A stretch of 64,000 bases of DNA from Treponema ruminis (lineage in GTDB: Bacteria > Spirochaetota > Spirochaetia > Treponematales > Treponemataceae): positions 2,108,001 through 2,172,000 of the forward strand of contig CP031518.1 in the NCBI GenBank assembly GCA_017161305.1. The letters run 5' to 3'. Below, piece after piece: positions 45,668 through 49,674 of this stretch. The position numbers and the translations under genes are program-made. The notes under the pieces were generated by a model. That model did no database searches and was not told the origin of the DNA. It was given only the letters and a program-made list of their open reading frames with translations. Numbering within the stretch: position 1 is the stretch's first letter; each line of letters starts with the position of its first letter.

Positions 45668-47833
45668 ATGGTACAAGTCAGCAATGTGCAGAATTCTTCA
45701 CTTCTGCCTCAGTTTTATACGGAATATTTGACAGGAAAAAGACAGCTTACTCCGGAAGAAATCAAAATTTTGCGTTCTTGTAATAAAAATTCAGACTCTT
45801 CATGGAAAAACATCTGGGTTGATGAAAATGAATTTGATCCCAGCCTCATTTCATGCTGTGAGATTCAGGGATTTCTTGTAATTGGAAAGCTTTCTGACCG
45901 CACTCTAAAATACCACGACCTTGCCCTTAAAGAAGGTCTTTATGATTCTTATTTTGAAAATGTCGTAATTGGCGATGACTGTGTCGTCCGCAACGTTCAT
46001 TATCTTTCAAACTACAAAATCGGTGACCGCAACATTCTCTTCAATATCGATGAGATGAGCTGCACCTGCCACTCAAAATTCGGAAACGGCATTCTAAAAG
46101 AGGGTGAAAAGGAATCAAACCGGGTATGGATTGGTGTCGGCAATGAAAATGACGGTCGTGCTGTCCTTGCTTTTGAGAATATGATTCCCGCCGACGCCTA
46201 CATCTGGGCAAAATACCGTGATGACATTCGGCTTCAGAGGCGGCTTCTGGAAATTACGGACAATCAGTTTCCCCATGAGCTTAACACTTACGGTATTACA
46301 GGCAACGATGTAATCATTAAAAATACCACCCTGCTCAAGGATGCCAAAATCTGTGATGCCGCCTATATCAAGGGTGCCTTCAAACTCAAAAACATCACGA
46401 TTCTTTCAACAGAGGAAGAACCAAGTCAGATTGGCGAGGGCGTAGAACTTGTAAACGGAATCATGAATCCGGGTTCAAAGGCTTTCTATCAGGCTGTAGC
46501 AGTCCGTTTCGTAATCGGCCGCAACTGCCAGCTTAAATACGGTGCCCGCCTGCTCAATTCAATTTTGGGTGACAATTCAACGGTTTCCTGCTGTGAAATC
46601 TTGAATAACCTGATTTTCCCATTCCATGAGCAGCACCATAATTCTTCATTCCTCATCGCATCGATTGTCGGCGGACAGAGCAACATCGCTTCCGGGGCAA
46701 CAATCGGTTCCAACCACAATTCCCGTGCCGCAGACGGTGAGATGTATGCAGGCCGTGGATTCTGGCCGGGACTTTGTTCTGATTTTAAGCACAACTCCCG
46801 CTTTGCAAGCTTTACCCTCATTTCAAAGGGAAGCTATCAGAACGAGCTGAACATTATGTATCCCTTCTCTCTGGTTGCAAGTAACGGCCCCTGCCAGCCA
46901 ATCACGATTATTCCGGCTTACTGGTTCATGTACAACATGTATGCCGTCGCCCGCAACAAGGCAAAATTTGAAAAGCGTGACAAGAGGCTTGTTAAAGTTC
47001 AGACCATCGAAACTGACCCTCTCGCTCCGGACACGATTCAGGAAGTTGAATACGGACTCAGACGGATCATTGAGCTTACGGCTGATTATCTTCTTGAGTT
47101 GAAAAACGAAGAGGCTCTGGCTGCAGAGAACAAGGAAGAACTTTATCAGGTTGCAAAGAATTACCTTCATCAAAATCCGGATGCAAGTTTTACCCTGCAC
47201 GAAAAAAAGGCTCAGAAAAAATACGGTGCCATTATCATCAAGCCGGTCAAGGCTTACCGCTCTTATCGCCAGATAGTCAAATTTTTTGCCGTCCGCACTC
47301 TCTGTGAATACTGTCAGCGCAATGGCAAGGCTGGTCTTTCTCCAAGCGATATTAAAGAGATTTCTGAAATGCCTCTTTTCTCAGAGTGGGTTAATGTCGG
47401 CGGTCAGATTATTCCGCGAAAGCGTCTGGACCAGCTCTTTGACTATATAAAAGAAGAAAGCATCAATAGCTGGGAAGAAATTCATGCCTATTACAGGGAA
47501 TGTCAGGAGCAGTATGATGACTACAAGGTCGCCTATGCCCTGAATTTGCTCGAAAAACTCTATACAAGGCCGATTTCTGAATTCAACAAGGAAATTTATG
47601 AGGATATCGCCGCAGATTCAAAAATCGCCAACGTAAAGACTTTTGATGAAACTTTGATTTCCAGAATGAAGGACTTTGACGATGAATTCCGAATGCAGAC
47701 CTTCAATAACGCCCGCGAAATGAATGCAGTTCTTGGAAGCATTACGGACAATGAATTCATTATGGATATGCGCGAAAACATGCAGAATTTTGAGAAATGT
47801 GTCAGCACGATTTTTGACAATCTTAAGACTTGA
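45668..47833 (+). CDS. DUF4954 family protein (left-handed beta-helix, hexapeptide-repeat type)
   Basis: 721 aa, no signal peptide. Residues about 95-430 contain many hexapeptide-like turns (FENVVIGDDCVVRNVHYLSNYKIGDR, ILSTEEEPSQIGEGVELVNG, FVIGRNCQLKYGARLLNSILGDNSTVSCCEI, IASGATIGSNHNSRAADGE), as in sugar-nucleotide acyltransferases and pyrophosphorylases. The last about 280 residues are helical. DUF4954 proteins of this length are shared by spirochaetes and Bacteroidetes; the reaction is unknown. TATAAT (45656-45661) ends 6 nt before the ATG and no Shine-Dalgarno is present, so it is probably leaderless, and divergent from rmuC. The stop codon lies inside the -35 box of the leu leader promoter. 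Confidence 0.8.
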   Translation: MVQVSNVQNSSLLPQFYTEYLTGKRQLTPEEIKILRSCNKNSDSSWKNIWVDENEFDPSLISCCEIQGFLVIGKLSDRTLKYHDLALKEGLYDSYFENVVIGDDCVVRNVHYLSNYKIGDRNILFNIDEMSCTCHSKFGNGILKEGEKESNRVWIGVGNENDGRAVLAFENMIPADAYIWAKYRDDIRLQRRLLEITDNQFPHELNTYGITGNDVIIKNTTLLKDAKICDAAYIKGAFKLKNITILSTEEEPSQIGEGVELVNGIMNPGSKAFYQAVAVRFVIGRNCQLKYGARLLNSILGDNSTVSCCEILNNLIFPFHEQHHNSSFLIASIVGGQSNIASGATIGSNHNSRAADGEMYAGRGFWPGLCSDFKHNSRFASFTLISKGSYQNELNIMYPFSLVASNGPCQPITIIPAYWFMYNMYAVARNKAKFEKRDKRLVKVQTIETDPLAPDTIQEVEYGLRRIIELTADYLLELKNEEALAAENKEELYQVAKNYLHQNPDASFTLHEKKAQKKYGAIIIKPVKAYRSYRQIVKFFAVRTLCEYCQRNGKAGLSPSDIKEISEMPLFSEWVNVGGQIIPRKRLDQLFDYIKEESINSWEEIHAYYRECQEQYDDYKVAYALNLLEKLYTRPISEFNKEIYEDIAADSKIANVKTFDETLISRMKDFDDEFRMQTFNNAREMNAVLGSITDNEFIMDMRENMQNFEKCVSTIFDNLKT

Positions 47834-47858
47834 CTAAAATCGAGCAAATAAGCATACT
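47830..47858 (+). promoter_or_regulatory. Promoter of the leuA leader
   Basis: TTGACT (47830-47835, overlapping the DUF4954 stop), 17 bp, CATACT (47853-47858). Six nt separate the -10 box from the ATG of the leader peptide. Confidence 0.7.
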
Positions 47859-47864
47859 AGAGTT

Positions 47865-47912
47865 ATGAAAACACTATCACTACTACTTTTGTTTGATTTT
47901 CTCTCAAAATAG
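47865..47912 (+). CDS. Leucine-rich leader peptide of the leuA attenuator
   Basis: 15 codons encode MKTLSLLLLFDFLSK, six of them leucine, with a run CTA CTA CTT TTG at codons 6-9. It lies between a promoter and an intrinsic terminator ahead of leuA, the layout of classical amino-acid attenuators. Its own ATG is 7 nt after the -10 box, so it is probably translated leaderless. The rare codon CTA is used three times in the leader, which would sharpen sensitivity to charged tRNA-Leu. Confidence 0.82.
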   Translation: MKTLSLLLLFDFLSK

Positions 47913-47970
47913 CTCAAAAGCGTGGTGGTATTGTTATAATTTCACAAATTACAGCCCTGTTGCTTTTGGC
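47912..47970 (+). promoter_or_regulatory. Predicted antiterminator of the leuA leader
   Basis: GCTCAAAAGC (47912-47921), just behind the leader stop codon, can pair with GCTTTTGGC (47962-47970) over nine base pairs with one bulged T. The second segment is the top and loop of the terminator hairpin, so the two structures exclude each other. A ribosome at the leader stop would cover the first segment. Confidence 0.65.
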
Positions 47971-47985
47971 AATAGGGCTTTTTTT
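47953..47985 (+). terminator. leuA attenuator terminator
   Basis: AGCCCTGTTGC (47953-47963), loop TTTTG, GCAATAGGGCT (47969-47979), with one G-U pair, then a run of T to 47985. It ends 5 nt before the leuA Shine-Dalgarno. Confidence 0.9.
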
Positions 47986-48003
47986 ATTTAAGGAGTTTTA
48001 AAA

Positions 48004-49674
48004 ATGAACGCAAAAAAGTACAAAGCATTTCCTGCGATTCCAATTGAGAACCGCACCTGGCCGTCAAAACGAATCACAAAGGCACCGATCTGGTGTTCTG
48101 TAGACCTTCGTGACGGAAATCAGGCCTTGATTGACCCAATGGGTATTGAAACCAAACTTGCTTTTTTTGAACTCCTTGTAAAACTTGGTTTTAAAGAGGT
48201 CGAGATCGGCTTCCCGTCAGCCAGCGACACAGAATACGACTTTATCCGCCGACTCATCGACGAAAACCGCATCCCAAGTGACGTTACGATTCAGGTTCTC
48301 TGTCAGGCCCGCGAAAAGCTCGTAAAGCGTACAATGGAATGCATCAAGGGCGCTCCGAGCGTTATCTTCCATATATATAACTCAACTTCTCCTGCCCAGC
48401 GAAAATACACTTTCAACAAGAGCAAGGAAGAAATTATCAAGATTGCCGTTGACGGCGTAAAGTGCATCAAGGAATGCATGAAGGATTTAAGCGAGGAAGA
48501 CCGCAAAAAAATCCGTCTCGAATATTCTCCTGAAAGCTATTCAATGACTGAAATCGACTACGCAATCGAAATCTGTGAGGCTGTCGGAAACGAGTGGGGC
48601 TGGTCAAAAGAAAATAAAATCATCTTCAACCTGCCTACAACAGTTGAGTGCTACACTCCGAACGTCTATGCAGACTCAATCGAATATTTCGCATCAAAAA
48701 TCTCTCACCGTGACTGCGTGATTATTTCAACCCACTGCCACAATGACCGCGGAACCGGCGTTGCTTCTTGTGAGCTCGGTCTTCTGGCCGGTGCTGACCG
48801 TGTCGAAGGCTGTCTCTTTGGAAACGGTGAGCGCACAGGAAACCTGGACATCGTTACTGTTGCCCTCAACATGTTCTCAGAGGGCGTAGACCCTGAGCTT
48901 GATTTCTCAAACCTGCCGGACATAGCCGATGCTTACCAGGAATACACCAAAATGGAAATCAATCCCCGTTCACCATACGCAGGCGGTCTTGCTTATACTG
49001 CTCTTTCTGGCGGTCACCAGGACGCAATCGCAAAGGGCTTTGCTGCCCGTGCAAAAATGCCTGAAGATGCAATCTGGGATGTTCCTTATCTTCTTATCGA
49101 TCCGCATGACATCGGCCGAAAGTACGAGGGCATCATCCGAATCAACTCTCAGAGCGGAAAGGGCGGTGCAAGCTTTATCCTCGAGCACAACTACGGTTAC
49201 GCAATTCCAAAGGCAATGCAGCCTGCAATCGGTGACCTCATCAAGGCAAAAAGCGATGCCGCCCAGCGTGAGCTTCAGCCGGAAGAAATCCTCAAATTCT
49301 TCGAGGAACAGTGGCTGGGCAAAAAAAGGCCTCTCGAAGTGCTTGACCTTGCCTCAACTCAGCTTGAGGGACACGATGAAAGCGAGCATGTTTCAACCCG
49401 CGGTGTCGTCAACTACAACGGCGTAAAATTCTCAATCGGCGGCAAGGGAAACGGTCCTCTCGACTCATTCGTTTCAGCCCTCGCCGGAACTCCGGTTCCT
49501 GCCTTCAACATCACGGCCTTCCATGAGCACTCTGTCGGTCAGGGAAGTGATACTTACGCAGTTGCTTACGTCCAGATTACAATGGAAGACGGCAAGTCAA
49601 AATGGGGTGTCGGTAAGTCATCAAACGTAGGAAAAGCCGGTGTTGCAGCCGTAATTTCCGCCCTCAACCAATAA
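48004..49674 (+). CDS. leuA: 2-isopropylmalate synthase
   Basis: 556 aa, of the longer LeuA type (about 550-600 aa). First committed step of leucine synthesis: condensation of acetyl-CoA with 2-oxoisovalerate. The DRE-TIM barrel has WCSVDLRDGNQALIDPMG with the catalytic Arg-Asp, VEIGFPSASDTEYDFIR, and ISTHCHNDRGTGVASCELGLLAGADRVEGCLFGNGERTGN with the metal-binding His-x-His. The C-terminal LeuA regulatory domain (about 420-556) includes HSVGQGSDTYAVAYVQITMEDG, the leucine-feedback region. Shine-Dalgarno AAGGAG. Expression is controlled by the upstream leucine leader. A terminator follows. Confidence 0.95.
   Translation: MNAKKYKAFPAIPIENRTWPSKRITKAPIWCSVDLRDGNQALIDPMGIETKLAFFELLVKLGFKEVEIGFPSASDTEYDFIRRLIDENRIPSDVTIQVLCQAREKLVKRTMECIKGAPSVIFHIYNSTSPAQRKYTFNKSKEEIIKIAVDGVKCIKECMKDLSEEDRKKIRLEYSPESYSMTEIDYAIEICEAVGNEWGWSKENKIIFNLPTTVECYTPNVYADSIEYFASKISHRDCVIISTHCHNDRGTGVASCELGLLAGADRVEGCLFGNGERTGNLDIVTVALNMFSEGVDPELDFSNLPDIADAYQEYTKMEINPRSPYAGGLAYTALSGGHQDAIAKGFAARAKMPEDAIWDVPYLLIDPHDIGRKYEGIIRINSQSGKGGASFILEHNYGYAIPKAMQPAIGDLIKAKSDAAQRELQPEEILKFFEEQWLGKKRPLEVLDLASTQLEGHDESEHVSTRGVVNYNGVKFSIGGKGNGPLDSFVSALAGTPVPAFNITAFHEHSVGQGSDTYAVAYVQITMEDGKSKWGVGKSSNVGKAGVAAVISALNQ

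Follow-up and report, generated by a model that had tools for sequence, protein, structure and literature searches.

In the classical leu, his, trp and ilv attenuators of enterobacteria the antiterminator pairs with the 5' arm of the terminator. Two systems from other phyla and before other genes come close to the locus discussed here, as judged by the descriptions in the accessible parts of the reports: the trpL attenuator of Sinorhizobium meliloti, whose transcript begins at the leader ATG and is therefore leaderless (PMC7298713), and the ilvBNC attenuator of Corynebacterium glutamicum with its antiantiterminator, antiterminator and terminator hairpins (PMC11857589). In the LEU element upstream of actinobacterial leuA, the partner of the Leu codons is the Shine-Dalgarno site of that gene, and the accessible part of that report describes no terminator (PMC1262725). 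The accessible part of PMC8632094 contains neither leuA nor Treponema. Among the papers searched, judged by title and opening of the abstract, none dealt with a ribosome-mediated or leader-peptide attenuator from Treponema; a 2010 survey by Lopatovskaya and colleagues may mention related ones.

Here we analyse the leader of leuA in a 64,000-nucleotide stretch of Treponema ruminis DNA (the window). With a probability of roughly 0.88 we consider this leader to act on leuA by ribosome-mediated transcription attenuation and to sense the supply of leucyl-tRNA. Very probably, a slowed ribosome switches leuA on under leucine shortage. Three features that define this class of attenuator are present: a leader reading frame rich in one amino acid and presumably translated, an intrinsic terminator, and at the stop codon an antiterminator that would exclude it. 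The proposed mechanism is that of classical attenuation, and leaderless leaders, attenuators with three hairpins and a leuA leader with a pseudoknot are already known elsewhere. The combination of features, the distribution in spirochaetes and an antiterminator directed to the loop were found neither in Rfam at gathering scores nor in the literature searched.

Layout of the leuA leader

The features of the region are collected in Table 1. B denotes the 5' arm of the antiterminator and T its partner in the terminator; P1 is a helix between the Leu codons and a stretch 3' of B, and it encloses B.

Table 1. Features of the leuA leader region; positions count from the first nucleotide of the window.
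Feature	Position	Strand	Description	Basis
Promoter	47830..47858	+	sigma70-type; TTGACT (-35) at 47830-47835; 17-nt spacer; CATACT (-10) at 47853-47858	sequence
Predicted +1	47865	+	A of the leader ATG, i.e. leaderless	
Leader ORF MKTLSLLLLFDFLSK	47865..47912	+	ATG at 47865; 15 codons, six Leu; TAG stop at 47910-47912	
P1 5' strand (Leu codons)	47870..47891	+	contains CACTACTAC and CTTTTG	fold, duplex energies, pair counts in one clade
TTCTC block	47899..47903	+	conserved whatever the frame	
B, antiterminator 5' arm GCTCAAAAGC	47912..47921	+	at the leader stop codon	
P1 3' strand	47915..47935	+	part of B, then GTGGTGGT and following bases	fold
Intrinsic terminator	47953..47979 (47986 with U-run)	+	AGCCCTGTTGC-TTTTG-GCAATAGGGCT	fold, -18.7 kcal/mol
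T, GCTTTTGGC	47962..47970	+	terminator loop and top of the stem; partner of B	
leuA ribosome site	47990..47995	+	AAGGAG	sequence
leuA, 2-isopropylmalate synthase	48004..49674	+	ATG at 48004; 556 aa	

The gene was identified as leuA with the NCBIfam models NF002991 (766 bits, cut-off 455) and TIGR00970 (716 bits, cut-off 697), and it starts 91 nt from the leader stop. The host genome is a single contig of 2.9 Mb; the nearest LeuA proteins on named contigs come from Treponema MAGs and also from T. berlinense and T. zioleckii. No NCBIfam family matched the upstream gene (45668-47833), whose TGA stop (47831-47833) sits inside the -35 box of the leuA promoter.

A preliminary description of this DNA had placed a promoter, an intrinsic terminator and a ribosome site for leuA in front of the gene, and each is present at the place assigned to it. 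Its 15-codon leader with six Leu codons (three CTA, then CTT, TTG and CTC) was likewise confirmed. B had been described as following directly after the leader stop; the adjacency holds, but B does not lie wholly behind the stop, since it shares the G of TAG.

The locus differs from the classical attenuators in that B is directed to the terminator loop and the top of the stem rather than to the 5' arm, in that P1 mainly uses the segment 3' of the antiterminator arm, and in its predicted leaderless start and spirochaete host. With the LEU element (PMC1262725, as far as the accessible part goes) it shares the gene leuA, a leader peptide with a Leu run, Leu codons engaged in a helix and a possible pseudoknot. 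In contrast to that element, however, the Leu codons pair in the fold with a segment before the terminator (47915-47935). A pairing between the Leu codons and the Shine-Dalgarno site of leuA was not encountered, as judged by position and inspection, AAGGAG lying beyond the longest transcript folded.

We propose the following course of events. Transcription would start at the leader AUG, and ribosomes would load on the leaderless nascent RNA. When leucine is scarce, the ribosome would presumably stall on the rare CUA Leu codons and P1 would stay open, so that free B could pair with the terminator loop and the top of the stem as they emerge, and polymerase would read through into leuA. If leucine suffices, the ribosome would reach the stop codon and its footprint would cover B, whereupon the terminator would fold and transcription would end. 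On RNA free of ribosomes, P1 would tie up or enclose B, and in certain relatives it would also take in the leader AUG; P1 is probably a protector or pause hairpin. Comparison of related genomes shows conservation of the leader, the terminator and P1 as well as the positions of stop codon and promoter, and a response to leucine is predicted.

The leader and its promoter in related genomes

LeuA is present in 183 of the 196 genomes sampled from the genus. Upstream regions were taken from 30 and then 79 of these 183 genomes, mostly from the top of the similarity list, and from 24 named loci that mostly belong to the same genomes. The first loci collapse to 35 distinct regions (L052 has no upstream part); addition of the 79 gave 114 regions, of which 111 were distinct. 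A script that asked for a reading frame of 12–22 codons with at least two adjacent Leu codons, plus a terminator, found an in-frame Leu-run leader and a terminator in 101 of the 111. The conservation of Leu codons in relatives, which the preliminary description had named as a check on its reading, was therefore observed. Among the ten regions left out, two have the attenuator but the script picked the wrong terminator (L018, L131) and one is cut by the contig end (L044). In the remaining seven (L039, L041, L030, L031, L098, L128, L133) leuA has no attenuator by eye, and these may be natural losses or replacements.

The 101 leaders contain 2–8 Leu codons (median 5), and Leu makes up 31.9% of their residues. 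Of the 531 Leu codons in the leaders 296 are CTA, whereas nine genes of the window use CTA for 6 of their 357 Leu codons. Codon 3 of the run is still Leu in 91 of the 101 leaders and codon 4 in 78; these codons are not required by the LL filter, but ranking by Leu count could still favour them. Single-base variants of CTA at the same two codons are synonymous in 36 cases and non-synonymous in 2. Since Leu is conserved, CTA enriched and the variants mostly synonymous, it is very probable that the leaders are translated and that leucine is what they are kept for.

In 82 of the 101 leaders TTCTC stands 3' of the Leu run and 5' of B, against 5.5 expected from shuffles. The block is spread over the three frames (33/28/21), and no pairing partner for it was found by eye. 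Directly 5' of the terminator, AAATTACA (47946-47953) is unusually conserved across the genus in the 53-sequence alignment A1 introduced below, as is the sequence of the terminator stem.

A -10 box with at least four of six matches lies 5–8 nt upstream of the leader ATG in 89 of 100 relatives, while four control offsets gave 50, 49, 6 and 26; the count of 89 is somewhat favoured because the leader ATG was chosen partly by its -10 box. A -35 box (five of six matches) follows 15–19 nt further upstream in 71 of the 100, in 58 of them at exactly 17 nt. The same promoter test placed 40 nt upstream gave none in about 98 regions of sufficient length. Because of the spacing between -10 box and ATG, we predict that the leader RNA is leaderless with initiation at the A of ATG.

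Nine leaders have a -10 box below four of six (L064, L084, L104, L112, L117 and L120–L123). L064 is cut by the contig, and L084 and L104 have, by eye, a promoter-like sequence in another register. The other six (L112, L117 and L120–L123) are without promoter-like sequence before the ATG, and all six are among the eight leaders with a Shine-Dalgarno-like 4-mer at that place, as is expected if a leader is translated though not at the 5' end. In L112, L117 and L123 a segment after B (GGCGCC) could, by eye, pair with the Leu codons and the terminator arm, which would be a more classical layout. A search of the window's own genome with a pattern for the leaderless start gave 45 matches, compared with 21 for the reversed pattern; inspection of 30 of these loci revealed no obvious second attenuator in that genome.

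Base pairing in the leader RNA

Conservation of the terminator stem is solid. On alignment A1 and its tree, which contain 53 sequences from a 77-sequence set thinned at 90% identity, eight of its ten pairs have changes on both sides and 99.6% of the cells are paired.

For P1, the mean duplex energy in the leaders is -15.7 kcal/mol with matched partners compared with -12.1 kcal/mol after permutation (0 of 2000 permutations as strong). We also exchanged partners within pairs of nearest relatives whose paths on the LeuA tree are separate. Among the 23 nearest pairs the own partner of P1 was better in 19 and worse in 2, with 2 ties (Wilcoxon p = 5e-5), so these swaps strongly support the helix. 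Because the register of P1 shifts between clades (alignments A1 and A3), its pairs were counted in a single clade of 16 sequences. There, six of the eight pairs of the main stem are changed on both sides, and P1 and B:T together have 18 cells with double change compared with 8.3 in shuffles, above all shuffles; the number of pairs with double change and the number of pair types were equalled in 34 and 46 of 500 shuffles. In folds of ribosome-free RNA from which the terminator has yet to emerge, 99 of the 101 leaders form P1 with at least five pairs.

The pairing of B with T in the window, which the preliminary description had given as nine pairs with one bulge, is correct; the duplex comes to -12.1 kcal/mol when flanking bases are included and to -9.1 kcal/mol for the bare arms. 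In 94 of the 101 leaders the duplex is stronger than in shuffled sequence, and the mean of -12.1 kcal/mol for matched partners compares with -9.4 kcal/mol for permuted ones (sd 0.21; 0 of 2000). On A1, 78.9% of the B:T cells are paired and 34 cells are changed on both sides, compared with 8.6 in shuffles and 4–17 in slid controls; the covariation is 0.246, compared with at most 0.157 in slid controls. The loop pair 67:147 of A1, for example, occurs as AU (11 sequences), GC (11), GU (9), UA (7) and UG (2) and is unpaired in 13 of the 53. Five B:T pairs carry a double change, a number equalled in 30 of 500 shuffles and exceeded in one slid control (7).

The phylogenetically paired support for B:T is marginal. 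In the swaps between the 23 nearest pairs the own partner was better in 13, worse in 8 and tied in 2 (Wilcoxon p = 0.13). After this non-significant result the test was repeated once with changed windows, and these gave Wilcoxon p values of 0.13, 0.054 and 0.038 and sign-test values of 0.45, 0.26 and 0.19. In several nearest pairs the loop is nearly identical, and the largest B:T differences favour the own partner. Column-wise parsimony counted 6 compensatory branches, compared with 5, 1, 0 and 0 in slid controls, and none of the independent-pair tests on the tree was significant. The pairing put forward earlier is kept in relatives with changes on both sides, but B:T is the weakest link of the case for an attenuator and less firm than leader, terminator and P1.

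Folding with a ribosome footprint at defined positions agrees with the proposed switch. For the leader of the window (G000), a footprint on the Leu codons gives B:T a probability of 0.8–1.0 while the 3' arm of the terminator is hidden, whereas a footprint at the stop codon gives 0. Without ribosome, P1 forms and takes part of B (CUUUUG in the Leu codons with CAAAAG), and B:T is again 0. At equilibrium the complete terminator outcompetes B:T in every state, the stalled ribosome included; antitermination must therefore be kinetic. Across the 101 leaders, at least four B:T pairs are expected in all 101 stalled states and in none of the stop-codon states, the latter partly a consequence of the windows chosen. 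The stalled state has a mean of 8.3 B:T pairs, compared with 3.3 with a shuffled leader. The untranslated default is predicted to be off in the leader of the window, yet B:T is favoured (at least four expected pairs) in 70 of the 101 ribosome-free leaders. That a ribosome at the leader stop would cover the antiterminator arm, as had been suggested, fits the geometry: in 91 of 101 leaders B lies between -15 and +17 nt from the first base of the stop codon, with the downstream limit set by the window, since B was sought between leader base 31 and 14 nt past the stop.

Distribution, ilvB and hisG leaders, and interpretation

With a covariance model the element was detected in 73 of the 145 Treponemataceae genomes and in 8 of the 20 genera sampled, including that of the window. 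Across the phylum, with strict filters, 26 of 296 genomes were positive, and all 26 belong to the same family. A lax search gave weak matches (E 0.39–1.5) in 3 of 15 genomes from other families of the order. Six weak matches within the genus were rejected by eye as attenuators of this kind.

Leaders of the same design also precede other genes. Upstream of ilvB (TIGR00118), 9 of the 45 usable regions among 50 fetched contain a leader with Val, Ile and Leu codons, for example MNAKLLVTVVTVLVLKVFR, together with a terminator and a promoter-like sequence just before the ATG. These nine (L336, L337, L338, L342, L346, L267, L271, L272 and L273) come from other Treponema genomes; in T. berlinense (G018) the ilvB leader lies on the same contig (359,593 bases) as leuA, which has its own leader there. 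In the genome of the window, neither of the two ilvB copies examined has such a leader. P1 beats shuffles in eight of the nine, with the opposite result for L346, where another hairpin had been chosen, and B:T beats shuffles in all nine, in L338 barely. Second matches of the covariance model led to three genomes of another genus of the family (L209, L210, L211), which have leaders with His codons before hisG (MTEIRLHLHHHLFSA, MTELRLHLHRHLFSA and MTETRLHSHHHLLSA), and the gene behind L209 matches HisG (TIGR00070, 155 bits, cut-off 76). Here P1 is above shuffles in all three and the automatic B:T energy hardly so in two; a pairing of GCCTGAAGG with CCTTNGGC is seen by eye. TYCTC occurs in three of three His leaders and seven of nine ilvB leaders. 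Among genes of the window's genus with at least 200 nt of upstream sequence, none of 29 hisG genes had a His leader and none of 28 trpE genes a Trp leader. Since the ilvB leaders carry Val, Ile and Leu codons and the hisG leaders His codons, codon identity in these sequences follows the pathway.

An unlikely alternative is a pseudoknotted RNA like the LEU element. P1 and B:T would then be present together in an H-type pseudoknot, and termination would be decided by a bound protein or ligand, perhaps at UUCUC, instead of a stalled ribosome. An H-type pseudoknot would be possible in those 21 of the 101 leaders in which P1 is formed with B mostly free, and the succession A-B-C-T, with A and C as the strands of P1, matches such a fold; UUCUC is moreover conserved regardless of frame, and the LEU element too joins a Leu-codon leader to a pseudoknot, according to the accessible part of its report (PMC1262725). 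In 80 of the 101 ribosome-free RNAs, however, B is over half paired before the terminator emerges. Translation is indicated by the mostly synonymous changes of the Leu codons, by the stop codon placed near B, by codon runs that match ilvB and hisG, and by the Shine-Dalgarno-like sites in the six leaders without a promoter-adjacent start. It is still less probable that a plain leader terminator is combined with a short peptide that tunes expression without sensing amino acids, e.g. by ribosome protection or reinitiation. Leader peptides have been proposed as translation enhancers in the accessible part of PMC4833913, but the spacing given there is 10–11 bp, compared with 91 nt here, and the rare Leu codons, the two extra helices and the pathway-matched codon runs would be left without explanation.

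We give hardly any credence to a direct leucine riboswitch or a T-box, even though a structured 5' leader with a terminator and a weak likeness to the Rfam trpB motif would suit them; the codons, the start and the stop of the leader are conserved. In the Rfam search of the window only a tRNA reached its gathering score, and no amino-acid leader family did so. The best weak matches were trpB (33.8 bits, gathering score 59) and Thr_leader (15.2 bits, gathering score 55). The trpB motif (RF04312; accessible part of the motif paper, PMC11109978) was rejected for its match below threshold, and T-box and the Rfam riboswitch families were rejected as well; the 13 matches obtained up to E 5 include no T-box.

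Ribosome-mediated attenuation thus remains our preferred reading. The preliminary description had already read the leader as such a switch, and this part is supported; its account was incomplete, since it lacked the leaderless start, P1 and the similar leaders in front of ilvB and hisG. A wider proposal, which we regard as possible but rather doubtful, is that the Treponemataceae have evolved an attenuator class of their own. It would comprise leaderless, codon-specific sensors (Leu for leuA, Val/Ile/Leu for ilvB, His for hisG) with a loop-invading antiterminator, a protector resembling an H-type pseudoknot made from the codons, and a shared UUCUC that would recruit a factor or pause polymerase.

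If the attenuator reading is true, spirochaetes would sense amino acids with the ribosome, and about 100 comparable examples with three codon specificities on one architecture would be at hand, with the natural losses of the attenuator as controls. It would become testable how a leaderless nascent RNA takes on ribosomes in time to govern its own termination, and how a switch of the classical type works when it is aimed at the terminator loop.
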